Below, piece by piece: positions 7,683-45,304 of a stretch of DNA of 64,000 nt. Numbering within the stretch: the first letter of the stretch is position 1; each line of letters begins with the position of its first letter. The notes below the pieces were generated by a model. It was not told where the DNA came from and did no database searches. It worked only from the letters and a program-made list of their open reading frames with translations. A program made the position numbers and the translations under genes. This stretch comes from Desulfatitalea tepidiphila (GTDB lineage: Bacteria > Desulfobacterota > Desulfobacteria > Desulfobacterales > Desulfosarcinaceae), in the NCBI RefSeq assembly GCF_001293685.1, contig NZ_BCAG01000004.1, positions 62,001 to 126,000 on the forward strand, in the 5' to 3' direction.

Positions 7683-8816
7683 ATGCAGCGCCAAACCATC
7701 AACAATCTCGTGTTGCTGTCCCTGCTCTTTCTGATTTCGGCCATTTTTCTTTCCATGATTCGCAATTTTCTCATGGCCCTTTTGCTGGCCGGGATCTTTT
7801 CCGCCATGGCGCAACCCATTTTTCGAAAAACCACCAGACTGCTGGGCAATCGACCCCGGGCGGCCGCTCTCTCCACCCTGCTGCTGTTCTGTCTGGTGGT
7901 GCTGGTGCCGCTGTCCGGCCTGGTGAGCATCGTCACCGCGCAGGCCGTCAAAGTGGGGCAGTCGATTACCCCCTGGGTGAGACACCAAATCGCTCAACCA
8001 ACCGCCTTTTCCGAATATCTGCAACGAATTCCCTACTACGATCAACTGCTCCCCTACCATGACCAGATCGTTAGCAAAGCCGGTGAGTTGGCCAGCAGGA
8101 TCAGTGTCTTTCTGGTTAACAGCCTATCTGCCGGTGCCATGGGCACGGTGAATTTCATCTTCATGTTTTTCGTCTTTTTGTACGTCTGCTATTTTTTCCT
8201 GATGGACGGCAAAGCCCTGATGGTGCGCATCCTCTATTATTTGCCCCTGCAGGAAAAAGAGGAAAACCGATTGCTGGACCGGTTCACATCCGTGACACGG
8301 GCCACGCTGAAAGGGACTGCACTGATCGGTGTGTTGCAGGGCGCCCTGGCCGGAGTGGCCTTTGCCGTGGTGGGCATCGACGCTTCGATTTTCTGGGGAA
8401 CGGTGATGGCGGCGCTCTCGATCATCCCGGCCCTCGGCTCGGCCATCGTATGGGTTCCGGCCGCCATCATCCTGGCGGCCGGGGGGAGTTATCTAAAGGC
8501 GATCGGGCTGACGCTGTTTTGCAGCCTGGTCGTCGGCAGTCTCGACAACCTGCTCCGCCCGCGATTGGTCGGCAAAGACACGCAGATGCATGATCTGATG
8601 ATTTTTCTCGGCACCCTGGGCGGTATCGCCATGTTCGGCGTGATCGGGTTCATCATCGGACCGATCATCGCCGCCCTGTTCGTGACGATCTGGGACATCT
8701 ACGGAGAAGTGTTCAAGGATTTCCTGCCGGGACTGGGCATGGAACATGGGCCGGAGGGGGATAAAAAAGGCCGGCCATCAGGGGAAGGCCGGCCCGAGAG
8801 CACACCGCAGGAATAA
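7683..8816 (+). CDS. AI-2E/PerM family membrane transporter
   Basis: A 377-residue polytopic membrane protein of the UPF0118/AI-2E exporter family (PerM, TqsA, YhhT; usual length 340-370). Hydrophobic pairs lie at about 8-40, 62-88, 155-180 and 205-345, and the family signatures MDGKALM, LKGTALIGVLQGALAG, IPALGSAIVWVPAAI and DNLLRPRLVGKD are clear. The hydrophilic tail from about 350 is short and charged. Relatives export autoinducer-2 or act as Na+/H+ exchangers; the substrate here is unknown. GGAG precedes the ATG by about 8 bases. The last 18 codons also encode, on the other strand, the terminator of the SDR gene. Confidence 0.88.
   Translation: MQRQTINNLVLLSLLFLISAIFLSMIRNFLMALLLAGIFSAMAQPIFRKTTRLLGNRPRAAALSTLLLFCLVVLVPLSGLVSIVTAQAVKVGQSITPWVRHQIAQPTAFSEYLQRIPYYDQLLPYHDQIVSKAGELASRISVFLVNSLSAGAMGTVNFIFMFFVFLYVCYFFLMDGKALMVRILYYLPLQEKEENRLLDRFTSVTRATLKGTALIGVLQGALAGVAFAVVGIDASIFWGTVMAALSIIPALGSAIVWVPAAIILAAGGSYLKAIGLTLFCSLVVGSLDNLLRPRLVGKDTQMHDLMIFLGTLGGIAMFGVIGFIIGPIIAALFVTIWDIYGEVFKDFLPGLGMEHGPEGDKKGRPSGEGRPESTPQE
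8762..8794 (-). terminator. Intrinsic terminator of the SDR gene, inside the PerM-like coding sequence
   Basis: GGCCGGCC at 8787-8794 and at 8769-8776 form an 8-bp stem with a 10-base loop, followed on the minus strand by UUUUUU (complement of 8763-8768). It begins 30 bases after the SDR stop codon and lies within the 3' end of the convergent PerM-like gene. Confidence 0.8.
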
Positions 8817-32828: not shown

Positions 32829-34487
32829 ATGGAAAAACAGGTCAATATCATGGTCGTGGACGACGAAGCCGGTATCTGCCGGAATGTGGAAAAAATCCTG
32901 TCCAAAGGCAGCTATCGGGTAACCTCGGCCACCAGCGGCGACGAAGCCCTGCAAAAAATGGCTGAAGGATCATTCGACCTGGTCATCTCCGACATTTTGA
33001 TGCCGGAAATGAACGGCCTCGAATTTTTAAAATCCCTCAAGGCCAGGTGGCCTGAAACAAAGGCCATCATGATGACCGCCTATGCTTCCACCGATACGGC
33101 CGTAAAGGCTATCCGCCTTGGGGCACTGGACTACATCCCCAAGCCTTTTACGCCGGACGAACTGCGCGCCATGGTCGAGGAGGCTATCCAGGGCAAACTG
33201 GTCGAGGCCCAGGTGAGCCCCAAGGAGAAGGCGTCGATCAACGTGATCGACGTGGACATTCCCTTCGATGCGGACGAGGTGGCCAAATATACCGGAGAAC
33301 AGTATGCCCGCAGCGTAGGGCGTTCAGACATTCCCACCGTGGAAGTCAAACTGCCCAGCGCCGCCGAAGGTTTTTGCGAAGTGGGGGCCATGGTCTGCGA
33401 CATCTTCAAGAAATTGGGTGCCACCTGCAAGGCCGGCACCAAAACCAAGGAGTGCCCACAACTTATGGCCGGCAAGAAAAAGAGCGCCTCGAAGAAGGAT
33501 GCCGCACCGAGCGTCAAAACCCTGGTGGGTATCGATCACCCCTTCAACTACGAGGAAGTTCGCGCGGTGACGGGCCCCGAATACTTGAATTATCTGCGCC
33601 ACGACGGCGTGGTGCAACCCACCTACGAGGAACTGAAGGCCAATGTGGCCCGCATGGACCAGAAGCGACGCATCGATGTGGATGTGCCCTTCGACTACGA
33701 GGAGGTGGCCCGCAGCACCGGTGAAGTATATGCCCGCCATGTCGGCCGGTCCGACGTCCCGGTGGTGGAAGTGGTCGTCGACAAAGAGCTGGAAGGATTC
33801 TGCGAGGTCGGCGACATGGTCTGCGACATTTTCAAAAAGCTTGGCGCCACGTGTAAGGCCGGCACCAAAAAGGGTGCCTGCCCCCAGAAAAGTGCCAAAC
33901 AGCCCAAGAAAGCCGCACAATCCAAAACAGCCGATACACGCCGCCTGATTGCCCCGGACATGCCCTTCGACTATCAAGAGGTGGCGGCGATGACCGGTCC
34001 GGAATACATAGACCACTTGGTTTATGACGGTATCGTGCAGATGCCCTACGCGCAACTCAAAGCCAACTACCAAAGGATCCTCGAGTCCGAAGGGTCGGCC
34101 GCTCAAACGGCGACGGCTCCCATGGAGAGGGTGCTGGTGGTGGATGACGAGGTGGCGGTCAACAACAACATCCGCAAGATCCTGAGCAGACGCAATTACA
34201 CCGTCGAGCAGGCCACCACCAAAGAGGAAGCACTGGCTAAGTTTGCGCAAGGTTCATATTCACTGGTCCTGCTCGACCTGAGGATTCCCGGCGTACAGGG
34301 TCTGGAACTGCTCGCGGCTGTGCGCAAAGCCCAGCCCCAGGCCAGGGTGGTGATCATCACCGGCTATGCAAGCATTGAAACGGCCAAGGAAGCCGCGCGC
34401 ATGGGAGCCGTGGACTACGTACCCAAACCGTTCACCCCCAAAGAGATCCGCACAGCAGCCGAAGAAGCGCTGAAAATCGCCGCCTGA
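32829..34487 (+). CDS. Double-receiver protein with duplicated four-cysteine modules
   Basis: A 552-residue protein with receiver domains at 5-122 (phospho-Asp55) and 433-552 (phospho-Asp483); both keep VVDDE, the Thr (MTAYAS, ITGYAS) and PKPFTP. Between them is a duplicated unit. Module A (137-211 and 279-353) starts with DVDIPF/DVDVPF and contains GFCEVG-MVCDIFKKLGATCKAGTK, giving Cys183, 190, 200, 209 and Cys325, 332, 342, 351, both spaced C-X6-C-X9-C-X8-C. Module B (231-275 and 371-417) has DHPFNYEEV or DMPFDYQEV, then TGPEY and DGxVQ. Modules are joined by Lys/Ala-rich linkers. There is no output domain. I infer a metal- or redox-responsive scaffold or phosphate relay; the modules are not recognised. 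It is preceded by a sigma54 promoter. Confidence 0.85.
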   Translation: MEKQVNIMVVDDEAGICRNVEKILSKGSYRVTSATSGDEALQKMAEGSFDLVISDILMPEMNGLEFLKSLKARWPETKAIMMTAYASTDTAVKAIRLGALDYIPKPFTPDELRAMVEEAIQGKLVEAQVSPKEKASINVIDVDIPFDADEVAKYTGEQYARSVGRSDIPTVEVKLPSAAEGFCEVGAMVCDIFKKLGATCKAGTKTKECPQLMAGKKKSASKKDAAPSVKTLVGIDHPFNYEEVRAVTGPEYLNYLRHDGVVQPTYEELKANVARMDQKRRIDVDVPFDYEEVARSTGEVYARHVGRSDVPVVEVVVDKELEGFCEVGDMVCDIFKKLGATCKAGTKKGACPQKSAKQPKKAAQSKTADTRRLIAPDMPFDYQEVAAMTGPEYIDHLVYDGIVQMPYAQLKANYQRILESEGSAAQTATAPMERVLVVDDEVAVNNNIRKILSRRNYTVEQATTKEEALAKFAQGSYSLVLLDLRIPGVQGLELLAAVRKAQPQARVVIITGYASIETAKEAARMGAVDYVPKPFTPKEIRTAAEEALKIAA

Positions 34488-34555: not shown

Positions 34556-34952
34556 GGGAGGCGGCCCTTATTTTGAACAATGTTTCATAATAAGAGCCGC
34601 CTCCATCACTCGGTTCACAACGCGGGATTTCCATGGCGGCCCAGGTCCAAGACGGCGAGCCCATGCTCTTGCGCTGACCCCCAGCATGATGCTTTAAAAA
34701 GGGCCGATGGGGAAGAAGATTGATATTTATAAGCTCAAGATCATATGCACGATAGGCGGTGCCGAACGGCAACTCGGTCGGCGAGGCTACAGGCGCCCAT
34801 CAGCGCTGGAATACATATCGATCCGCCATTCTCGGCCCCGCTCATCGCATTGTATCCGACTCAATGCGCATCCGTCCGTAAGAGTCTGATCTCGCATCCA
34901 AATCGATTCAGGGACATGCATTGTCAGGGTCGAATCCAACGGTCGAATTTTA

Positions 34953-35151: not shown

Positions 35152-35200
35152 AACCGCTGGATTCGATCCAAGGCAGCCAACGGGATCGAATCCAGCGGTT
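35152..35200 (+). promoter_or_regulatory. 18-bp perfect stem-loop in the leader of hdrA-N
   Basis: AACCGCTGGATTCGATCC (35152-35169) is exactly complementary to 35183-35200, with a 13-base loop. No U-tract follows, so it is not an intrinsic terminator. It ends 33 bases before the ATG and just before the ribosome-binding site, a position suited to mRNA stability or translational control, or to binding a dimeric regulator as DNA. Confidence 0.6.
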
Positions 35201-35233: not shown

Positions 35234-35617
35234 ATGGCAAATAGTGTTAACGGCTCCGTTCTGGTTGTCGGTGGCGGTATTTCCGGGATGCAGGCCGCTT
35301 TGGACCTGGCCAATTCAGGCTATTACGTCTACCTGCTCGAAAAATCCCCTGCAATTGGTGGGGTCATGTCCCAATTGGACAAGACCTTCCCCACCAATGA
35401 CTGCGCGATGTGAATTATCTCGCCCGTACTGGTCGAGGTCGGCCGGCATCTAAATATCGAACTAATTACCTATGCGGATTTGGAAGAAGTTCAAGGCAAA
35501 CCAGGCAACTTCAAGGTCAAAGTGCGTAAACGCGCCCGCAGCATCGACCTGGATTTATGCACCGGCTGCGGTGCTTGTGTCGAAAACTGCCCGGTGGTCC
35601 AAACCACCGGCGCCTGA
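35234..35617 (+). CDS. hdrA: HdrA/QmoA N-terminal half with selenocysteine (split gene)
   Basis: A 127-residue protein read through UGA at 35411-35413 (codon 60). It starts with an FAD-binding Rossmann motif ([18 protein letters not shown]), continues with [23 protein letters not shown], the HdrA site where many HdrA proteins have Cys or Sec, and ends just after a [4Fe-4S] motif ([13 protein letters not shown]) at a TGA (35615-35617). The rest of a normal HdrA unit is missing here but is found at residues about 210-530 of the fusion protein encoded at 38154. GGAAGG lies about 8 bases before the ATG. I infer that the two chains assemble in trans; a simple truncated remnant is the alternative. 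Confidence 0.8.
35421..35446 (+). promoter_or_regulatory. SECIS-like hairpin of hdrA-N
   Basis: CCG-U-AC (35424-35429) pairs with GU-CGG (35438-35442), leaving a bulged U on the 5' side and a loop UGGUCGAG. A bulged U and GGUC in the loop recall the E. coli fdhF SECIS. The loop starts 17 bases after the UGA. The stem is shorter than in the other two cases. Confidence 0.5.
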
Positions 35618-35708
35618 CACCAGGTTGCAGCATGGCGGTTTCCGAAACGATCACCGCCGTTAACCTTTAATTTATTGCCAAATTTTTGCGATTTCGGGAG
35701 AAAAGCAG

Positions 35709-36206
35709 ATGAGCGAAGCCGCTGCGACCCTTAGTGGTCCTGTCGAAGAGATCGACATTCGCGAACTCGATGACATCATTGAAAACCAGTTCGGCAACGA
35801 CAAAGAAAACCTGATCATGATTCTGCAGGCCATTCAGCGGCGATACAATTATCTGCCGCGGCCGGCACTCACCTACCTGGCGCCTAAAATCGGCGTGCCC
35901 TTCAGCAAAATTTACGGCGTGGCCACCTTTTATGCCACCTTCAGCCTCGAGCCGCGCGGACGCAACATCATTTCGATCTGCCTGGGTACGGCCTGCCACG
36001 TCCGTGGCGGCGAACGCATTCGCGAACGCATCACCGATTCGCTCAAAATCAAGGACGGTGAGACGACACCGGACGGCCGTTTTACGCTGGAATCCGTCCG
36101 TTGCATCGGCTGCTGCAGCCTTGGGCCGGTGATCAAGATCAACGAAGACATGCATGGACGCATCGGCACGGATGAAGTCGAAAAGGTTCTGAATGAATAC
36201 GAATAA
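35709..36206 (+). CDS. nuoE: NuoE-like [2Fe-2S] thioredoxin-fold subunit
   Basis: A 165-residue subunit equivalent to NuoE/HndA/HydC. It has the N-terminal helical part (ENLIMILQAIQRRYNYLPRPAL), KIYGVATFYATFS, and the four [2Fe-2S] ligands in CLGTACHVRG and CIGCCSLGP. The usual partner is the NuoF-type subunit encoded next, whose start overlaps this end by 14 bases. In electron-bifurcating hydrogenases and NADH-linked complexes this subunit carries electrons to or from the FMN. GGGAGAAAAG precedes the ATG. Confidence 0.95.
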   Translation: MSEAAATLSGPVEEIDIRELDDIIENQFGNDKENLIMILQAIQRRYNYLPRPALTYLAPKIGVPFSKIYGVATFYATFSLEPRGRNIISICLGTACHVRGGERIRERITDSLKIKDGETTPDGRFTLESVRCIGCCSLGPVIKINEDMHGRIGTDEVEKVLNEYE

Positions 36207-38130
36207 CGGCATTAGCGAGGCATCAACCATGAAAATCGCGTCTGCGAAAGATCTGGAAAAAATTAGAAAAGCATACGCCCCGAGCCTTTACCACCCTGAA
36301 GGAATCAAGATCAATGTGGGCATGGCTTCGTGCGGCATCGCCGCCGGGGCCGTGGATGCTTTTGAAAAGGCATCCGAGGCCTTTAAAGATGATGACCATA
36401 TCACCGTCTGCCAAACCGGTTGCATCGGTTTCTGTGAAGTCGAGCCTCTCGTGGAAATTTTGGCGGACGGCCGACCACGCGTGATATACAAAAACATCAC
36501 GGCGGATAAAATTATCGAAGCCGTCGAGGACTACCAGAACGGCGCATCCAAAAAGAAATGGATTCTCGGTCAGATGCGCGATCCACGCTGCGTCCTGGAA
36601 GACGATCTCGACAATCCCATCGACAAAATCGAACCCATCGAAGGCATCCCCTTTCTGGAGGATGTGCCTTTTTACAAAAACCAGGTCAAGGTGGCCTTGC
36701 GCAACTGCGGCTACATCGATCCGGACGAGATCGACGCCTACATCGCCAAGAAAGGCTACCTGGCTTTTATCGACGCCTTGAACCATCAGGAGCCCAAGAA
36801 AATCATCGAGACCATCAAGGACTCCGGGTTGCGCGGACGCGGCGGCGGCGGTTTCCCCACCGGCATCAAGTGGGCCACGGCCGCCAAGCACCATGGCGAA
36901 CGCTATATCATCTGCAATGCCGACGAGGGCGATCCCGGCGCATACATGGACCGTAGCATCCTTGAAGGCGATCCGCATAGCGTCTTGGAAGGCATGCTCA
37001 TCGCGGGCTACGCTATTGGCTCGCGGCAAGGTTACATCTACGTACGAAACGAGTATCCACTGGCCGTCAAGCGTCTGCTGGCCGCCATCAAGCAGGCCGA
37101 AGCGTACGGGCTCTTAGGAGACAACATCGCCGGCAGCGATTTTTCTTTCCACATCAAAATCTCCACCGGCGCCGGTGCCTTCGTATGTGGCGAATCCACT
37201 GCCTTGATGGCCTCGCTGGAAGGCAAGGTGGGGCGCCCACGCGCTAAATATGTGCACACGGTCGAAAAAGGATTCCGTGAAAGCCCTACCAACTTGAACA
37301 ACGTGGAGACTTACGCCAACGTACCGGCCATCGTTCTTAAAGGAGCGGACTGGTATGCCGGCATGGGAACAGAACACAGCAAAGGCACCAAGGTGTTCTC
37401 GCTGGTGGGCAAAATACAGAACACCGGCCTGGTGGAAGTTCCCATGGGCGTTTCGCTCAAGCAGATCGTGTTCGACATCGGCGGCGGCGTTCCCAAGAAA
37501 AAGAAATTCAAAGCCGTGCAAACCGGCGGACCGTCGGGTGGATGCATCCCCGAACGTTTCCTAGACCTGCCGGTAGACTACCAGAAGCTGGCCGAGGTGG
37601 GTTCCATCATGGGGTCCGGTGGTATGATCGTCATGGATCAGGACACCTGCATGGTGGACGTGGCCCGCTACTTCCTCGACTTTCTCAAGGAGGAGTCTTG
37701 CGGCCAGTGCAACCCTTGCCGTGAAGGCATCAAACAGATGCTCGACATCCTGACCGACATCTGCCAGGGCAACGGTAAAGATGGCGATATCGAACTGCTC
37801 GAAGAGTTGGGCGCCATGGTCCAAAAGTTTTCACTGTGTGGTCTGGGCACTTCGGCACCCAACCCGGTCCTGACCACCATCTTGTACTTCCGTGACGAAT
37901 ACGAACAGCATATTCGCGATAAGAAGTGCCGCGCCGGTGTATGCAAGGAGTTGTTTCACTATGAAATCGATGCCGAGGCCTGTACCGGTTGCCAGGTATG
38001 CTTCCGTAAATGCCCTCAACATGCGGTCTCGGGGGAAAAGAAAAAACCCCACAGTATCGATCAGACCAAATGCATCAAGTGCGGTATTTGTTACGAAGGA
38101 TGCAAATTCGACGCGATTAAAATCTGCTAA
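36193..38130 (+). CDS. nuoF: NuoF-like NADH-binding flavoprotein with extra ferredoxin domains
   Basis: A 645-residue diaphorase subunit of the HndC/HydB type. An N-terminal [2Fe-2S] thioredoxin-like domain (GMASCGIAAGA, CQTGCIGFCEVEP) is followed by the FMN/NADH domain (GLRGRGGGGFPTGIKW, CNADEGDPGAYMDR, GAGAFVCGESTALM), SLBB, the [4Fe-4S] motif SCGQCNPCREG with a distal Cys in FSLCGLG, and two C-terminal [4Fe-4S] clusters (CTGCQVCFRKCP, CIKCGICYEGC). It should oxidise or reduce NAD(H) in the cytosol. An alternative ATG at 36229, with GAGG 8 bases upstream, would remove 12 residues. This layout is typical of bifurcating complexes rather than complex I. Confidence 0.95.
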   Translation: MNTNNGISEASTMKIASAKDLEKIRKAYAPSLYHPEGIKINVGMASCGIAAGAVDAFEKASEAFKDDDHITVCQTGCIGFCEVEPLVEILADGRPRVIYKNITADKIIEAVEDYQNGASKKKWILGQMRDPRCVLEDDLDNPIDKIEPIEGIPFLEDVPFYKNQVKVALRNCGYIDPDEIDAYIAKKGYLAFIDALNHQEPKKIIETIKDSGLRGRGGGGFPTGIKWATAAKHHGERYIICNADEGDPGAYMDRSILEGDPHSVLEGMLIAGYAIGSRQGYIYVRNEYPLAVKRLLAAIKQAEAYGLLGDNIAGSDFSFHIKISTGAGAFVCGESTALMASLEGKVGRPRAKYVHTVEKGFRESPTNLNNVETYANVPAIVLKGADWYAGMGTEHSKGTKVFSLVGKIQNTGLVEVPMGVSLKQIVFDIGGGVPKKKKFKAVQTGGPSGGCIPERFLDLPVDYQKLAEVGSIMGSGGMIVMDQDTCMVDVARYFLDFLKEESCGQCNPCREGIKQMLDILTDICQGNGKDGDIELLEELGAMVQKFSLCGLGTSAPNPVLTTILYFRDEYEQHIRDKKCRAGVCKELFHYEIDAEACTGCQVCFRKCPQHAVSGEKKKPHSIDQTKCIKCGICYEGCKFDAIKIC

Positions 38131-38153
38131 AAACATACAGAGGAAAGTCCATT

Positions 38154-41100
38154 ATGATTACCTTCAAGATCAACGGCCAGACGGTTCAGGGAGAAGAGGG
38201 CCAATACGTACTGCAAGTGGCCCAGAAGTACGGCATTGAAATCCCCACCCTGTGCCATCATAAGGCTCTGGAACCGGCTGGCATGTGCCGGCTTTGCACC
38301 GTGGAGATGTTCGACGGCCGGCGCTCCAGATTCGTGACGGCCTGCAACTACCCCATATGGGAAGGCATGGAGATCAACACCGACACGGATTCGGTGCACC
38401 AGGGGCGCAAATTGATCGTGGAGTTGCTCATGGCCCGATGCCCGGAGGTCCCCATCCTTCAAAAGCTGGGCAAAAAATATGGGATCGAGAAATCCCGTTT
38501 CAAGGCGGAAGACGACACATGCATCTTGTGCGGCTTGTGCGTTCGCATGTGCGAACGGATGGGCAACAGCGCTATCGAACTCACCGGACGCGGCGTCGAG
38601 ATGAAAGTCGATACCCCCTTTCACACCCAGACCGATGTGTGTCTGGCCTGCGGGGCCTGTGCATCGGTCTGCCCGACCGGACACATTACGCTGGACAAAA
38701 TCCGTGACGAAATCACGAAAAAGAAAAATGTCCATAAAATTCCCTCAGAATATGACATGGGGCTGAAAGGCCGCAAGCCGGTCTACGTACCCTATGCCCA
38801 GGCCGTGCCCAATACGCCAGCCATCGATCGCGACGTGTGCGTGCACTTTAAAACCGGCGGTTGCCAGGTGTGCACCGAGTTTTGCGGGGTTAACGCCATC
38901 AACCACAAAATGGAAGATGAAATCGTCGAATTGGAAGTGGGCTCGATTATCCTGGCGCCCGGCTTTCAGCCTTTCGATCCCTCCAAGTTTGACTCCTACG
39001 GCTATGCCAACCACCCCAACGTCATCACCTCCATGGAGATGGAGCGGCTGCTCTCCGCATCGGGGCCCACGGGCGGCCATCTCGTGCGACTCTCCGATCA
39101 CAAGGAGCCCAAAAAGATCGCATGGTTCCAGTGCGTCGGCTCCCGTGACCTGAACCGCTGCGACAACAGTTACTGTTCGTCGGTCTGCTGCATGTATGCC
39201 ATCAAGGAGGCCGTCATCGCCAAAGAGCACGCCGGTGCCGAACTCGACTGCGCCATCTTCTATATGGATATGCGCACCCACGGTAAGGATTTCGAACGAT
39301 TTTACAACAATGCCAAAGACAAGGGCGTGCGCTTCCTGCGCAGCCGGGTGCACACCATCGATCCGGTGCGGGGCAGCGACGAGCTGTCGGTGCGCTACGT
39401 CAACGACGATGGCAGCCTGCAGGAGGAGCAGTTCGACATGATCGTGCTCTCCATCGGTCTGGAGACCTCCCCGGAAGTGGTGCGATTGGCCCAGAAACTG
39501 GGCATCGAACTGACCGAAGGCAATTTCTGCAAGACCGACACCTTCGAACCGGTGGCCACCAGCAAGCCGGGCATCTATGTATGTGGCGCCTTCCAAGGCC
39601 CAAAAGACATTCCCCAGTCAGTGGTCGATTCCAGCGCCGCCGCTGCTGCGGTGGGCGAAATTCTGGCGACGGGGCGCAACACGGCCACAAAGAAGCCCGA
39701 AGTGATCCCCGAGGTCAATGTTCAGGGCGAACGGCCGCGCATCGGTGTCTTTGTCTGCCGCTGCGGCATCAACATCGCCGGCGTGGTGGACGTTCCCTCG
39801 GTGGCCGAATATGCCGCCACCCTCCCCTATGTCGAATATGCCACCGACAATCTTTACTCCTGCGCCCAGGACACCCAGGACAGGATGACCCAGATCATCA
39901 AGCAGAAAAATCTCAACCGCGTCGTGGTGGCTGCCTGCACGCCCAAAACTCATGAGCCGCTGTTCCAGGAGACCTTGATCAATGCGGGGCTGAACAAATA
40001 TCTTTTCGAGATGGCCAATATCCGCAACCACGACTCCTGGGTGCACAAGAACAATCCCGACTTGGCCACCCGGAAGGCCAAGGACCTGGTGCGTATGGCC
40101 GTCAACAAGGTAGGCCTCATGCAGCCCCTCCAGGAGGCAGAACTGGAGGTCAACCAGGCTGCTCTGGTCATCGGCGGCGGCATTTCAGGCATGACCGCGG
40201 CCCGCAGCCTCGCGCGCCAGGGATATGAAACCCACATCATCGAACGCGGAGAACGTTTGGGCGGCCAGGCCCACAATTTGTACAAAACCATCAGCGGCGA
40301 TCTGGTGGCTGATAAATTGGCTGAACTCGTCGCCGAGGTTGAGCAGAACAAAAATATCAATGTCCATCTGAACAGCGAACTGACCGCTTTGGACGGTTTT
40401 GTGGGCAACTTCAAATCGACCGTGAGCTCCAACGGCAGCCAGAAGGAGATTGTGCACGGCGTGGCCGTGATCGCCACCGGCGGCGCACCGCTGCAGACCG
40501 AAGAGTACTGCTATGGTCAAGATCCCCGCATCATGACCAGCCTGGAACTGGACCAACGTATGAAAGCCGATGACCCGGCTTTGGCCGCGGCCAATGCGGC
40601 GGTTTTTATTCAATGCGTCGGTTCGCGCGAACCCCAGCGGCCTTACTGTTCTCGGGTATGCTGCACCCATTCTATCGACAACGCTTTGGAGTTAAAAAAG
40701 CGCAACCCGGATATGAACATCTATATCCTCTATCGGGACATCCGCACCTATGGAGAGCGTGAATACCTGTACAAAGAGGCACGCGAAAAAGGCATTATCT
40801 TCATCCGCTACGAGCTGGAAAACAAGCCCCAGGTCGCAGTGGCCGAAGGTCGCATCCGGGTGACGGTCATCGACCATGTACTCGGTCTGCCGGTCACCAT
40901 CGAGCCCGACCTGCTCTCTCTGGCAACAGCCGTCGTGCCCAACCGGGACGACAAACTCGCCCAGTTCTTCAAGGTGCCGCTCAACGACGACGGATTTTTC
41001 GTCGAAAAGCATGCCAAACTGGGCCCCTCGGAGTTTGCCACAGACGGTGTCTTCCTCTGCGGTTTGGCCCACTACCCCAAACCCATCGACGAAGCCGTCG

Positions 41101-41414
41101 TGCAAGGGCGCGCCGCCGCCAGCCGGGCGGTCACCCTGTTGGCCCGCGAAAAGATCAAGACCAGCGGCCAGGTGGCCCAGGTCGATCCCATGATGTGCAG
41201 CAGTTGCGGCGTCTGTGTCTCGATCTGCCCCTATTCGGCGCCCTCTTTCATCCCCGCCGATGCCCGGATGCACGCCGGCAAGGCCCAGATCAATGCTGTG
41301 CTGTGCAAGGGGTGCGGCCTGTGCGTGGCCTCGTGCCGATCGGGTGCCATCCATTTGAAAGGATTCGACAATGACCAGATCTTTGCCCAAATTTCTGCGG
41401 TGAGCTGGGAATAA
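38154..41414 (+). CDS. hdrA: NuoG-like / HdrA / HdrA fusion
   Basis: A 1086-residue fusion. Residues 1-75 are a NuoG-type [2Fe-2S] domain ([24 protein letters not shown]), then two [4Fe-4S] clusters ([24 protein letters not shown]). About 205-530 is the second half of an HdrA/QmoA unit ([53 protein letters not shown]); its FAD/ferredoxin first half is absent and is encoded at 35234-35617. About 540-1086 is a second HdrA unit with its own N-terminal domain ([19 protein letters not shown]), FAD motif VIGGGISGM near 672, a second CVGSRE-YCSRVCC block, and C-terminal [4Fe-4S] motifs [12 protein letters not shown] and [11 protein letters not shown]. The second unit lacks the NDCAM-C/U site. It is likely the bifurcating core. 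Confidence 0.9.
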
Positions 41415-41475: not shown

Positions 41476-41907
41476 ATGAGTGAATGGGAACCTAAAATCG
41501 TCAGCTTTCTATGCAACTGGTGCAGCTATGGCGCCGCCGACCTGGCCGGTGTCAGCCGTATGGAGTATCCGCCCAACATCCGGGTGGTACGCATTCCGTG
41601 TACAGGGCGAATGAGCCCAAAATTTGCCCTGGCCGCCCTTCGCGAAGGCGCCGATGCGGTGTGGGTGTCCGGGTGACATCCGGGCGAATGCCATTACCTG
41701 GAAGGTAATTACTACGCACGACGTAAATTTATGTTGATGAAAAAACTGCTCGAATACATGGGTATCGAATCGGACCGTCTTCACTTCTCCTGGATTTCTT
41801 CCGCCGAATCCACCAAATTCGTGAAGGTCGTCGGTGAGGTCACGGCCAAGGTCAAAGCCCTTGGCCCAAACAAACGATTCGTGAAAAAGGAAGCCAAGGT
41901 AGCCTAA
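41476..41907 (+). CDS. mvhD: MvhD-like electron-transfer subunit with selenocysteine
   Basis: A 143-residue protein read through UGA at 41674-41676 (codon 67). It has the MvhD/FlxD [2Fe-2S]-binding pattern: [23 protein letters not shown] and VSG-U-HPGECHY, where methanogen and bacterial homologues have CHPGDCHY and some have Sec at the first Cys. Beyond the UGA the frame keeps family sequence ([21 protein letters not shown]), which shows read-through. MvhD passes electrons between the HdrA flavin core and the partner oxidoreductase. The stop codon is followed after one base by the next ATG. Confidence 0.93.
41693..41709 (+). promoter_or_regulatory. SECIS-like hairpin of mvhD
   Basis: ATTACCT (41693-41699) and AGGTAAT (41703-41709) form a perfect 7-bp stem with loop GGA. 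It starts 16 bases after the UGA and has GG at the start of the loop, as bacterial SECIS elements do. Confidence 0.7.
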
Positions 41908-41908
41908 G

Positions 41909-42856
41909 ATGTCAACTTACACTGAAAAGATCAGGGAAATCGCCCAACGGCTGCTCAAAGAGTGCCGGGTTGAGATGGTTATCGGGTTCCGAAAGGGTTC
42001 CGTTCCTATGATGAACGAACCGTGTTTCGTACGCAAACCCGAGGAGGTCGATGCGCTGATGTGGGACAGCAACTGCGGCATCAACCTGGCCAACTACCTC
42101 ACCAATCGGAAGGAAAAGATCGGCATCGTCGCCAAGGGGTGTGATTCACGCAATATCGTGACCCATATCCTTGAAAATAAAATCAAACGCGAACAGCTCG
42201 TCATCATCGGTGTGCCGTGTCAGGGCATGATCGACAAACGCAAGATCGCCGCCATGGCCCAGGGCGAAGTTCTCGAAGTCACCGAAAGCGACGGTCAGGT
42301 GCATGTCAAAACCGCCGCCGGCAGCCAGACATTCGATAAGAAAGACGTGCTTCAGCAGAATTGCAGCGTCTGTGTCCACCGCAACCCGGTCATTTCCGAT
42401 GAGATGGTGGCCGATCCGGTGGAAGAGCAAAAAGATGTGGACCCATACGCCGACGTGGCTTCCCTGGAAGCCATGACCACCGATGAGCGCTGGGCCTTCT
42501 TTGACGATTTGCTGGCACCCTGCATCCGTTGTTATGCGTGCCGCAACGCATGCCCGCTGTGCTACTGCCCGACCTGCTTCGTGGATGAAGCCAAACCGCA
42601 GTGGGTGGGCAAGAGCCAGGACCCCATCGATGTCCGCACCTTTCATCTTCTGCGTGCCTACCACTGTGCGGGACGCTGCACCGATTGCGGTGCCTGTGAA
42701 AGAGCCTGTCCGATGGGCATCAACATGCGCCTGTTGACCAAGAAGCTCAACAAGGACTGCCTGGATCTCTATGGTTGGGAAGCCGGGCTCTCCCTGGATT
42801 CACGGCCGGCGCTCGATGTCTACAAGCCCAACGACACCAACGATTCTATTCTCTAA
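41909..42856 (+). CDS. FlxC-like iron-sulfur subunit (FrhB-related, dicluster ferredoxin)
   Basis: A 315-residue Fe-S protein. The N-terminal half resembles the FrhB/FdhB family (IGIVAKGCDSRNIVTHILE, IIGVPCQGMID, QQNCSVCVHRNPV). The C-terminal half has a dense cluster motif CIRCYACRNACPLCYCPTC and a second CTDCGACERACPMG, enough for at least two [4Fe-4S] clusters. It is followed by a second, AsrA/HydB-like member of the same general type and by a flavin subunit, the FlxC-FlxB-FlxA set known from FlxABCD-HdrABC clusters in sulfate reducers. It should relay electrons between the NAD-binding flavin subunit and MvhD/HdrA. The assignment to FlxC is by family resemblance and order. Confidence 0.8.
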   Translation: MSTYTEKIREIAQRLLKECRVEMVIGFRKGSVPMMNEPCFVRKPEEVDALMWDSNCGINLANYLTNRKEKIGIVAKGCDSRNIVTHILENKIKREQLVIIGVPCQGMIDKRKIAAMAQGEVLEVTESDGQVHVKTAAGSQTFDKKDVLQQNCSVCVHRNPVISDEMVADPVEEQKDVDPYADVASLEAMTTDERWAFFDDLLAPCIRCYACRNACPLCYCPTCFVDEAKPQWVGKSQDPIDVRTFHLLRAYHCAGRCTDCGACERACPMGINMRLLTKKLNKDCLDLYGWEAGLSLDSRPALDVYKPNDTNDSIL

Positions 42857-42875
42857 TCAGACTAAAAGGCAAATT

Positions 42876-43940
42876 ATGAAGGTCATTAAAATCGAAAAAA
42901 GCCAATGGTCACCGGGCCTGGAAAAATTGAAGGGGGCGTTCAGACTGATCGGGCCGGTCAAGGAAAAGACGTGGCATAACTTCCAGGAATTGGCCGCCGG
43001 ACAGATGCCCGACCTGGCCTTTCAGAACACGCGGCTCTCGCCAAAAAGCCTGGTTTTTCCCCAATCCGAGATCATGCTCGACTACTCCCTCGACAAAAAG
43101 GACCCGGATTGCAACATCACCAAGATGGCCGAGAAAGATTATTCTCCCAGGGCGGTCATCGGCATTCGCCCATGCGACGCCAAAGCTCTGGTCCTGGTGA
43201 AGATGAACTTCGATACGGATGAGTACCAGGATCCTTACTGGCTGAATCTCTATGACGCCACCACCTTCGTGGGACTGGCATGCGATACGCCCTGCAGCAC
43301 CTGTTTTTGCACCAGCACCGGCTGCGGCCCCTACCATGAGGAAGGGCTGGACGTACTGCTGGCCGAGCGGGAGGATCATTTCGTCGCCAAGGTGTTGACC
43401 GATAAAGGTGCACGGCTGATGGAAAGCGCCGGCTGGTCGACCGTTCTGCCCGATGCGGCTGCCATGGACCAGGCAAAGAGCGCCGCCGAAGAAAAGATCG
43501 TCTCCAAAATCGAAACCGGCAATCTGGCGGCTGCCGACACCATGGCCCTGCACGGTGCCGATTTCTGGGAAGATATCTCCTTCGCCTGTATCAATTGCGG
43601 TACCTGTACCTTCTCTTGCCCCACCTGCTGGTGTTTCGACATCCAGGATGAAACCTATGGCAAGAAAGGGGTGCGCATGCGCAACTGGGACAGCTGCATG
43701 TTTCCCATCTTCTCCGTACACACCACCGGGCATAACCCCCGAGACACCAAATTGGCCCGATTGCGGCAGCGTTTCATGCACAAGCTCAAATATTTCGTGG
43801 ATAAATATGACAAAGGCATCATGTGTGTGGGTTGCGGACGTTGCGTCCGGCAGTGTCCGGTCAATATCGATATCCGCACCATCAGCAAATTGATGAACAA
43901 TCTGGCATCCGAAGCCAAGTGCGCAGTTCAAGGGAGCTGA
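42876..43940 (+). CDS. FlxB/sulfhydrogenase beta-like iron-sulfur subunit
   Basis: A 354-residue protein of the AsrA/HydB family (sulfite reductase and sulfhydrogenase electron-transfer subunits). Visible features are VIGIRPCDAKALVLVK, ACDTPCSTCFCTSTGCGP, then two ferredoxin-type motifs CINCGTCTFSCPTCWCFD and CVGCGRCVRQCPVNIDI. ATG 42876 has AAAAGG 8 bases upstream; the frame is open further but that part overlaps the preceding gene. It should carry electrons from the FAD/NAD subunit encoded just downstream to the rest of the complex. Confidence 0.85.
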   Translation: MKVIKIEKSQWSPGLEKLKGAFRLIGPVKEKTWHNFQELAAGQMPDLAFQNTRLSPKSLVFPQSEIMLDYSLDKKDPDCNITKMAEKDYSPRAVIGIRPCDAKALVLVKMNFDTDEYQDPYWLNLYDATTFVGLACDTPCSTCFCTSTGCGPYHEEGLDVLLAEREDHFVAKVLTDKGARLMESAGWSTVLPDAAAMDQAKSAAEEKIVSKIETGNLAAADTMALHGADFWEDISFACINCGTCTFSCPTCWCFDIQDETYGKKGVRMRNWDSCMFPIFSVHTTGHNPRDTKLARLRQRFMHKLKYFVDKYDKGIMCVGCGRCVRQCPVNIDIRTISKLMNNLASEAKCAVQGS

Positions 43941-43941
43941 C

Positions 43942-44841
43942 GTGCCGGTGGTCATCCAGCAGCGCCCCGAACGCACCCGATCGAGGGAGGAATTCGTGCA
44001 AAATCCATATCTGCCATATCCGGTCCGTATCGACGACATTACCGTCGAGAGCGAAGATCGCAATTTAAAAACCTTTAAATTCGTGTTCCTCAACCCGGAC
44101 GATGAAGCCAAATTCGCATACAGAGCCGGTCAGTTTGCCGAATTGTCCATCGCCGGAGTGGGCGAAATCCCCATCGGCATCGCCTCTTCCCCGGTGGAAA
44201 AAGGGTTCATCAAGTTTACCGTGAACAAGGCCGGGGTCGTGACCTCTCGTCTCCACAATATGCAGGTGGGCGACATCATGGGTGTGCGCGGCCCGCTGGG
44301 CAACTGGTACCCCTGGGACCTGCTCGAAGGCAAGAACGTGCTGATCGTCGGCGGCGGATTCGCCTTCACCACCTTGCGATCTTCGATCATTTACATGCTC
44401 GACCCGGCCAATCGGAAGAAGTTTAACGACATCAGCGTGGTTTACGGCGCCCGCTCTCCAGGTATGCTCCTTTATAAAAACGAGCTGATCGAGTGGGAAA
44501 AGCGCGATGATATCAACATGCACATCACCGTGGACGGCACGAAAGATCCGGACTGGAAATACAATGTCGGCTTTGTGCCGCCGATCACAGAACAGAAGGC
44601 CCCCCCGGGTGATGAAAACTCTTACGCCATCGTTTGCGGCCCCCCCATCATGATCAAATTTACACAGCCGGTCCTTGAAAAACTGGGCTACGACCATGAC
44701 CACATCATCCTTTCTCTGGAAAACCGGATGAAGTGCGGTATCGGTATGTGCGGCCGCTGCGGTATCGGTCGCGAATTGGTCTGCAAGGACGGCCCGGTAT
44801 TCACCCTGGCTCAGGTGAACCGGACACCGAGAGAATATTGA
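43942..44841 (+). CDS. FlxA/sulfhydrogenase gamma-like FAD/NAD(P)-binding subunit
   Basis: A 299-residue oxidoreductase subunit of the AsrB/HydG family (ferredoxin-NADP reductase fold). It starts at GTG (GGGAG 6 bases upstream). The FAD domain shows AGQFAELSIAG and VTSRLHNMQVGD, the NAD domain IVGGGFAFTTLRSS, and the C-terminus has the [2Fe-2S] motif KCGIGMCGRCGIG with a further Cys in LVCKDG, as in DHOD electron-transfer subunits. The cluster therefore contains two separate NAD-binding flavoproteins (this and NuoF), which is unusual. It ends 145 bases before dsrC. Confidence 0.88.
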   Translation: MPVVIQQRPERTRSREEFVQNPYLPYPVRIDDITVESEDRNLKTFKFVFLNPDDEAKFAYRAGQFAELSIAGVGEIPIGIASSPVEKGFIKFTVNKAGVVTSRLHNMQVGDIMGVRGPLGNWYPWDLLEGKNVLIVGGGFAFTTLRSSIIYMLDPANRKKFNDISVVYGARSPGMLLYKNELIEWEKRDDINMHITVDGTKDPDWKYNVGFVPPITEQKAPPGDENSYAIVCGPPIMIKFTQPVLEKLGYDHDHIILSLENRMKCGIGMCGRCGIGRELVCKDGPVFTLAQVNRTPREY

Positions 44842-44986: not shown

Positions 44987-45304
44987 ATGCCGACAGTTGA
45001 ATTTAGTGGAAAAACTTTTAACGTAGACGAAGATGGTTTCATCGATGATTACAAAAACTGGAGTGAAGAGTGGGTCCAGTATGTAAAGCAGCAGGAAGGC
45101 ATCGATGAGCTGAACGATGAACACAAAAAGGTGATCGAGGTGCTCCGCGAGTACTATGAAAAGAATGGTATCGCCCCGATGGTTCGCGTTCTTTCCAAAG
45201 TCACCGGGTTCAAACTGAAACACATTTATGAACTCTTTCCTTCCGGACCGGGCAAGGGAGCCTGTAAAATGGCAGGTCTGCCCAAACCGACCGGTTGCGT
45301 CTAA
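44987..45304 (+). CDS. dsrC: Dissimilatory sulfite reductase-associated protein DsrC
   Basis: A 105-residue protein of the DsrC/TusE family. The body (DGFIDDYKNWSEEWVQYVKQQEGI, HKKVIEVLREYYEKNGIAPMVRVLSK) and the flexible C-terminal arm (GKGACKMAGLPKPTGCV) are canonical. Both redox cysteines are present: Cys104 next to last, and Cys93 eleven positions earlier (CX10C), so it can carry the trisulfide formed by DsrAB and be reduced by DsrK- or Hdr-type enzymes. A strong AAAGGAGGAG precedes the ATG and it has its own promoter and terminator, which suits a highly expressed protein. dsrAB is not in the window. Confidence 0.96.
   Translation: MPTVEFSGKTFNVDEDGFIDDYKNWSEEWVQYVKQQEGIDELNDEHKKVIEVLREYYEKNGIAPMVRVLSKVTGFKLKHIYELFPSGPGKGACKMAGLPKPTGCV

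Follow-up and report, generated by a model that had tools for sequence, protein, structure and literature searches.

A HydABC/Bfu-like core within hdrA and a probable two-chain HdrA in Desulfatitalea tepidiphila

The locus and the two ends of HdrA

HdrA is one of four known kinds of electron-bifurcating enzyme (PMC9304861; papers are cited here from excerpts, and what is attributed to them holds for those excerpts). This report concerns an hdrA gene of the sulfate-reducing bacterium Desulfatitalea tepidiphila that appears to be cut in two, in a 64,000-nt stretch of the genome (NZ_BCAG01000004.1, positions 62,001-126,000; hereafter the window, to whose positions the coordinates below refer). 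A small selenoprotein gene would encode the front half of one HdrA unit, and a fusion gene of 1086 residues (38154-41414) would encode the back half together with a second HdrA unit; nuoE, nuoF and a NuoG-like segment (NuoG') lie between the two halves. From comparison of sequences, it is highly probable that a core of the HydABC/Bfu type was inserted in hdrA and that HdrA unit 1 consists of two chains that rejoin. The features that bear on this reading are as follows.

35234-35617, plus strand: putative front half of HdrA unit 1, a separate selenoprotein gene of 127 residues, with a flavin adenine dinucleotide (FAD) beta-alpha-beta motif, selenocysteine 60 (Sec60) and C109, C112, C115 and C119 of a half ferredoxin domain
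35411-35413, plus strand: TGA probably read as Sec60
35429-35446, plus strand: hairpin resembling a selenocysteine insertion sequence (SECIS), with an AGGT loop
35709-36206, plus strand: nuoE, a [2Fe-2S] subunit like BfuC (Pfam PF01257, NCBIfam NuoE)
36193-38130, plus strand: nuoF, a flavin mononucleotide (FMN) and NADH subunit like BfuB (HydB), with a C-terminal 2[4Fe-4S] domain (family scans, structure-sequence match)
38154-38723, plus strand: fusion residues 1-190, NuoG', like BfuA, with a [2Fe-2S] domain and an eight-cysteine ferredoxin domain (C123-C133, C163-C173)
38739-39713, plus strand: fusion residues 196-520, putative back half of HdrA unit 1, with C229, C237, C240, C244, E297 and K351
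39729-41414, plus strand: fusion residues 526-1086, second HdrA unit in one chain, with an N-terminal cluster domain, its own FAD domain and a C-terminal ferredoxin domain

An earlier note on this DNA had given the coordinates and sequences of the small gene and the fusion correctly, and family scans (Pfam and NCBIfam, covering ten genes between 32.8 and 45.3 kb of the window) bear out its placing of nuoE, nuoF and a NuoG-like segment between the two HdrA ends. Its proposal that these ends are complementary is confirmed by alignment to intact HdrA. On the structural reference, PDB 5odc, residues 7-121 of the small protein align to HdrA 144-258 and fusion residues 196-453 to 260-512, covering one unit with a gap of a single residue and no overlap; on the profile reference, NCBIfam HdrA2 (NF040770), the small protein covers 137-257 and the fusion 256-566. 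The NuoG-like N-terminus of the fusion does run into an HdrA segment, as described before, but the homology starts at residue 195-196, about ten residues earlier than the point near residue 205 that had been given. This segment had also been said to have no FAD or NDCAM part of its own, which holds (no GxGxxG and no NDCxM stretch); the second HdrA unit of the fusion has its own FAD domain. The TrxR-like FAD domain and the inserted 2[4Fe-4S] ferredoxin domain that mark an HdrA are found in the two chains jointly and in neither singly. On these comparisons, the split-HdrA reading is well supported.

Individual residues can be followed across the split. E356 and K409 mark the bifurcating flavin of HdrA (PMC9430772), and E297 and K351 of the fusion lie at these positions and are invariant in 33 of 33 fusion rows. 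A pattern search of 63 split rows recovered the lysine of unit 1 in 59, with 4 unmatched; at the lysine position of unit 2 it found D in 21, E in 15, K in 4, H in 3 and L in 1, the rest being unmatched. In the window, Asp842 takes the place of Lys409 in the second unit; this unit has neither the inserted ferredoxin domain nor an equivalent of Cys197, and it keeps the N-terminal cluster domain. In the solved HdrA, Cys197 serves as a ligand to the N-terminal cluster in the partner copy of HdrA, and a matching complementarity of N-terminal domain and Cys197 is described for tandem HdrAs (PMC9012536). Sec60 of the small protein aligns with this cysteine in an ungapped alignment.

An open frame through the small gene requires its in-frame TGA to encode selenocysteine (U60, in NDCAMU). 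Starting 15 nt past this codon, the 18-nt hairpin CTGGTCGAGGTCGGCCGG recurs without change in 38 of the 39 relatives that a motif search found, with one base differing in the remaining one, and both SelB and tRNA-Sec score above cut-offs in the genome. Because the hairpin is conserved and SelB and tRNA-Sec are present, the assignment of residue 60 as selenocysteine is supported; a UGA at CxxU, a SECIS-like hairpin and the selenocysteine machinery occur together here, as in a selenoprotein HdrA. Across the 42 loci with a separate, neighbouring front half, Sec occupies this position in 40 (the window, 38 of 40 measured relatives and L245) and Cys in 2. The small protein terminates just past its cluster motif, as previously stated: in the 40 adjacent relatives measured, the stop lies 6-19 residues past the same CP and is TGA, TAG or TAA. 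From this variety of stop codons at a similar distance it follows that the terminal stop is the true end of the gene. A second Sec codon at the terminal TGA was considered and rejected, since relatives use TAA or TAG there.

A selenoprotein half of HdrA is easily overlooked or shortened by gene callers, which may serve as a warning for annotators. An annotation or assembly artefact would mean that a single gene was cut by a recoded TGA or by mis-assembly, and in-frame TGA codons do hide selenoprotein genes from lists of open reading frames, as with MvhD in this operon. However, nuoE and nuoF sit between the halves in tens of assemblies and the terminal stop is TGA, TAG or TAA across relatives. 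Mis-assembly was ruled out because the arrangement recurs in tens of genomes, and the chance of an artefact of either kind is negligible.

The ferredoxin domain at the cut and the linkage of the front half

The earlier note had placed the break at a domain boundary, which does not hold. Within the limits that we take the inserted ferredoxin domain of HdrA to have, the cut falls inside this 2[4Fe-4S] domain and leaves four cysteines on each chain. C109, C112, C115 and C119 are invariant in 23 small-protein rows, as are C229, C237, C240, C244 and the eight NuoG' cysteines in 33 fusion rows. The first Cys motif has four cysteines in 54 of 55 rows with the NuoE-F-G' block, in 42 of 42 plain rows and in 31 of 31 with a GltD insert; the exception, L061, is shortened by a contig end and the motif is present there. 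In a rarer variant resembling formate dehydrogenase (L088 and L235), the front half has three cysteines and the back half the fourth of the first motif in both loci, an overall division of 3+5. The domain has two cysteine motifs, and insertions of all three kinds lie either between these or inside them. Each motif of an ordinary 2[4Fe-4S] ferredoxin contributes its fourth cysteine to the other cluster. Since both motifs are kept with four cysteines per chain, NuoG' has eight of its own and the first motif can be split 3+1, a cluster domain shared across two chains is the simplest reading.

Another possibility is that NuoG' makes up for the lost HdrA motif in cis with its own last Fe-S motif (C163-C173), such that only the FAD half would act in trans and no cluster would be shared. 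A CxxCxxCxxxCP motif does lie about 20 residues ahead of the start of the back half, and one Pfam model (PF13484) spans fusion residues 163-247. Yet NuoG' uses C163-C173 in its own eight-cysteine domain (Fer4_7 and Fer4_21 at 119-179), the four cysteines that the small protein keeps in all complete rows would be idle, and the formate-dehydrogenase-like variant divides its first motif between the chains. Replacement in cis is therefore regarded as unlikely.

Linkage of the two halves was followed with a junction query, which was matched over its full length in at least 51 of the 192 genomes from the class (52 loci including the window). The front half is a separate gene 5' of nuoE in 42 of these loci, is fused to a response regulator in 1 and lies elsewhere in the genome in 3 (L111, L112 and L114); in the other 6 (L042, L043, L068, L072, L080 and L244) it would lie beyond the contig end, leaving 46 assessable. 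Among these 46, with the whole genome searched wherever the front half was not adjacent, no case of a retained fusion with an absent or decayed small gene was found. Loss in genomes G016, G001 and G182 was considered and ruled out when the front half was found elsewhere in each; these unlinked copies adjoin an HdrB-like gene and nuoE and, in G182, also nuoF. The front half is the most conserved part, with mean pairwise identities of 0.91 and 0.85 versus 0.62-0.80 for the other parts (38 rows). A front half fused behind a response-regulator domain is seen at a single locus, L087/L107 (L107 6743-8509, minus strand).

The unlinked copies in G016, G001 and G182 would suit a different explanation, in which the small selenoprotein acts independently as a redox protein and only happens to be encoded in the operon, and the first HdrA segment of the fusion is a shortened, FAD-free electron-transfer domain. 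An orphan front half in the same genome without a visible back half, of a type conserved elsewhere, would also suit it. Against such independence stand the complementarity of the end points to one residue, a fusion of front half to NuoE in eight loci that ties the front half to the complex, the unchanged E297, K351 and other half ferredoxin cysteines in 33 rows, and the retention of the front half in every assessable locus. The explanation is accordingly given a very low probability.

Several observations nevertheless weigh against two chains that rejoin. The 6 of 52 loci cut by contig ends are not assessable, and presence or absence in metagenome-assembled genomes (MAGs) hinges on binning; for the contig-end loci of G180 (86% complete) and G167 (81% complete), a search of the whole genome returned a closest copy of only 66% and 69% identity. 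The orphan in D. tepidiphila itself is a second stand-alone front half of the Cys form (C1:195355-195714; L101, about 7811-8242, minus strand) beside two MvhD genes, and in the 16 kb examined around C1:195355 nothing HdrA-like was found except a QmoA-like protein, and no back half. Similar orphans occur in L113, L123 and L124 (about 1 kb or more of flank), with no HdrA back half there; front halves can therefore occur where no partner is in view. The two half ferredoxins covary to a modest degree (Spearman 0.53 versus 0.27-0.43 for five other parts), the bootstrap 95% interval of the difference lying above zero in one of five comparisons and being borderline in another. In one-chain AlphaFold models, fusion residues 187-260 have a predicted local distance difference test (pLDDT) score below 50 and the small protein, mostly poor, averages 56.7; the complete ferredoxin of NuoG' (120-176) is equally below 50, so a low pLDDT for a half ferredoxin is no clean test. 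A Foldseek search with a one-chain model ranks HdrA chains at the top; neither it nor the models bear on pairing.

As a separate observation made by eye, CCG-domain (HdrD/HdrB-like) proteins lie near the orphan front halves, and HgdB-like proteins do so in L101, L123 and L124.

Operon context, variants and origin

Around the genes described above, the operon and its flanks hold the following features.

35152-35200, no strand assigned: perfect inverted repeat with 18-nt arms and a 13-nt spacer, just 5' of the operon; a possible hairpin or operator, and also a minus-strand self-match
41476-41907, plus strand: MvhD with selenocysteine (Sec 67) by family scan, hidden from the open reading frame list by its in-frame TGA
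41909-42856, plus strand: X1, a 4Fe-4S protein, FlxC-like by position only, kept downstream in relatives
42771-43940, plus strand: X2, a 4Fe-4S protein like AsrA or sulfhydrogenase beta (family scan)
43942-44841, plus strand: FNR-like FAD/NAD(P) protein, similar to AsrB or sulfhydrogenase gamma (family scan)
44987-45304, plus strand: DsrC with two C-terminal cysteines (family scan), adjoining the operon in many relatives

The listed start of X2 is probably too early, as relatives align from about residue 25-36. A partial extra copy of the inverted repeat lies at 34927-34943, and a double-receiver regulator gene (32829-34487) is found upstream of the small gene.

A search for unsplit relatives found them in the same operon context, both as plain tandem HdrA (L166-L169 and L171) and with a GltD insert (L089-L093), and their operons continue with MvhD, X1 and/or X2, FNR and DsrC. 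The GltD insert is detected in L089-L098 by tblastn and in L089 also by Pfam; the Pfam scan found no GltD domain in the window fusion. The formate-dehydrogenase-like form (L088 and L235) begins with a front half that carries an added Fe-S domain, continues with an FdhA gene containing an in-frame TGA and ends with the back half behind a fused stretch that was labelled FdhB-like by eye, Pfam giving nothing for it. A fusion of the front half to FdhA was ruled out for this variant, the frames showing a separate FdhA gene.

Support for an insertion comes from the best 80 of at least 588 loci returned. The NuoG'-HdrA junction is present in 19 of these named loci, of which 16 hold the front half too; L160, L188 and L174 have no front half in the stretch covered, which begins too late in L160 and L188. 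Of these 16 loci, 8 have the front half and NuoE as one in-frame fusion and the other 8 have a separate front half. Such fusions are found in Spirochaetota (L184, L199), Cloacimonadota (L186), Verrucomicrobia (L237), archaea (L193, L206), an unplaced bacterium (L236) and a Desulfobacteraceae MAG (L189), six of the eight loci coming from archaea or other bacterial phyla. Because a front half fused to NuoE and a back half fused to NuoG' are the two scars predicted of it, the insertion of a nuoE-F-G' block into hdrA has direct support in these sequences. The earlier suggestion that such a block entered an ancestral hdrA at a domain boundary thus stands as to the insertion, given the eight fusions and the unsplit relatives, but not as to the boundary.

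The later history was examined on a backbone tree of 144 of 164 HdrA units, the remainder being without a second unit, shorter than 600 residues, duplicates or unclassified. The tree was built with FastTree, which warned of two long branches meeting, and comprises 63 units split by NuoE-F-G', 42 plain, 37 with GltD and 2 formate-dehydrogenase-like. Because the architecture label needs 33 changes on this tree, the present distribution, as judged from it, is not that of one vertical event; the NuoE-F-G' label changes 22 times, 17 of these being forced by starred branches. On front-half columns, available for 130 of the 144 units, the NuoE-F-G' label needs 7 or 5 changes, a far better grouping by architecture than on the backbone. 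Most of the 14 units without a front half lie at contig ends; in L086 it is unlinked and in L186 it is past the distance limit. In a fine scan, the signal of architecture comes from the end portion of the front half and from fusion residues 237 to about 290, around the ferredoxin domain, and dropping the 30% most architecture-specific columns raises the changes from 4 to 17 and from 3 to 20, with most of the signal lost. Part of the front-half signal may reflect architecture-specific constraint rather than recombination. Since the same cassette occurs with the same end points on many backbones, we infer that repeated cassette exchange among HdrA backbones is likely.

Two further observations concern the fusions and their neighbours. 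In L080 and L081 (G152 and G181), an in-frame TGA lies in the fusion at a GVFVCH-TGA-G motif of the N-terminal domain of the second unit, where a second selenocysteine is possible as a cluster ligand. The archaeal contigs L206 and L238 carry several HdrA units side by side, with differing architectures in L206.

Proposed mechanism and known systems

Regarding the inserted module, the nuoF product matches the B subunit of a bifurcating NiFe-hydrogenase (7t2r) with 717 bits, versus 362 bits for NuoF of complex I, and is closest to the B subunits of bifurcating hydrogenases and Nfn-type enzymes. Its alignment to 7t2r extends through residue 642 with the C-terminal cysteines kept, consistent with the C-terminal Fe-S clusters of BfuB, which are absent from complex I NuoF (PMC9304861). 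The N-terminal cysteines of BfuBC (a six-cluster set including an N-terminal [2Fe-2S]) are partly aligned. In sequence, the inserted block resembles the HydABC/Bfu bifurcating core more than plain NuoEFG. Between L045 and L047, both of genus g14, the nuoE/nuoF identities to the window are 74/79% versus 47/63%, with the small protein, NuoG' and HdrA parts nearly equal; the NuoEF core itself seems to have been exchanged.

In the proposed mechanism, a HydABC/Bfu-type core (nuoE, nuoF and nuoG') would have been inserted in the part of hdrA that encodes the inserted 2[4Fe-4S] ferredoxin domain. The small selenoprotein would contribute the FAD dinucleotide-binding motif, Sec60 and four cysteines. 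The fusion would supply the remaining four cysteines and what is left of the FAD site, along with Glu297 and Lys351, all attached to the final Fe-S domain of the Bfu core. On rejoining, the chains would form two [4Fe-4S] clusters with cysteines from both, and NuoG' and the bridged ferredoxin domain could carry electrons between the bifurcating FAD and NAD(H)/ferredoxin at the Bfu core. The second HdrA unit, MvhD, X1, X2 and FNR would make up the other branch, and Sec60, in the register of Cys197, may complete the cluster in the N-terminal domain of the second unit. Chain association, shared clusters and the route, direction and substrates of electron flow are what we infer.

The Bfu core, GltD and the formate-dehydrogenase-like genes are three unrelated modules at nearby points of one HdrA domain in one operon family. 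With some reserve, we favor the view that the inserted ferredoxin domain is a general socket for electron-input modules, that two of the three make this domain and the bifurcating FAD site two-chain, and that cassettes were swapped on many occasions, among them transfers into archaea and several bacterial phyla. If true, an HdrA of two chains in nature would demonstrate that separate polypeptides can build a bifurcating flavin site and a two-cluster ferredoxin domain, and having the small subunit in or out would offer a simple handle on which cofactors bifurcation requires. On the two-chain reading, one complex is also predicted to contain two bifurcation sites of different kinds, Bfu FMN-FeS and HdrA FAD, wired directly to each other.

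Once its chains are joined, the window HdrA has the same part order as the HdrA of HdrABC-MvhADG (5odc; 8rvu) and HdrA2 (NF040770), along with the Glu/Lys signature, the Cys197 position and an MvhD that follows. The HdrA of HdrABC-MvhADG is one chain, whereas that of the window is cut, with a Bfu-like core in the cut, Sec at Cys197 and a tandem second unit. FNR, X2, X1 and MvhD presumably recall FlxA-D by family and order, with DsrC adjacent; unlike FlxABCD-HdrABC, the window has no hdrBC among the operon genes scanned and has an added Bfu core.

GltD inserts in HdrA are already published, for HdrL of Db. autotrophicum (PMC2702500), ANME-1 (PMC9012536), methane archaea (PMC12054007) and the HdrA of Moorella (PMC9430772). 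HdrL, HdrA-NfnB and type III HdrA are similar in that the GltD-bearing relatives of the window share its operon, with MvhD, X1 and/or X2, FNR and DsrC. With a GltD insert, however, HdrA remains a single chain and is interrupted about 30 residues beyond the point of the present cut, whereas the window HdrA is split by a three-gene module. A supplement legend of PMC2702500 mentions that in its species at least two colocalised genes, arranged in domain order, encode each of several Hdrs; the excerpts do not name the present split. The earlier note knew of no description of the present arrangement, and none of an HdrA split by a NuoE-F-G' block was found in the excerpted literature on HdrA insertions (GltD and NfnB); a prior mention is possible.

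From the Bfu side, nuoE and nuoF match bifurcating BfuBC cores of the HydABC-like family and nuoG' resembles the N-terminus of BfuA; among the Bfu classes in the excerpts of PMC9304861, none has an HdrA half fused to BfuA. The Bam complex of class II benzoyl-CoA reductase, compared by its description in the same source, likewise combines a Bfu core (BamG-I) with an HdrA-type module in two coupled bifurcations, the Bfu core being proposed to feed the HdrA module. It differs in its benzoyl-CoA reductase gene, no BamBC-like counterpart of which was found among the ten genes scanned in the window. By analogy, the system described here may pair a Bfu core with HdrA as the Bam complex does, but with the two directly wired.

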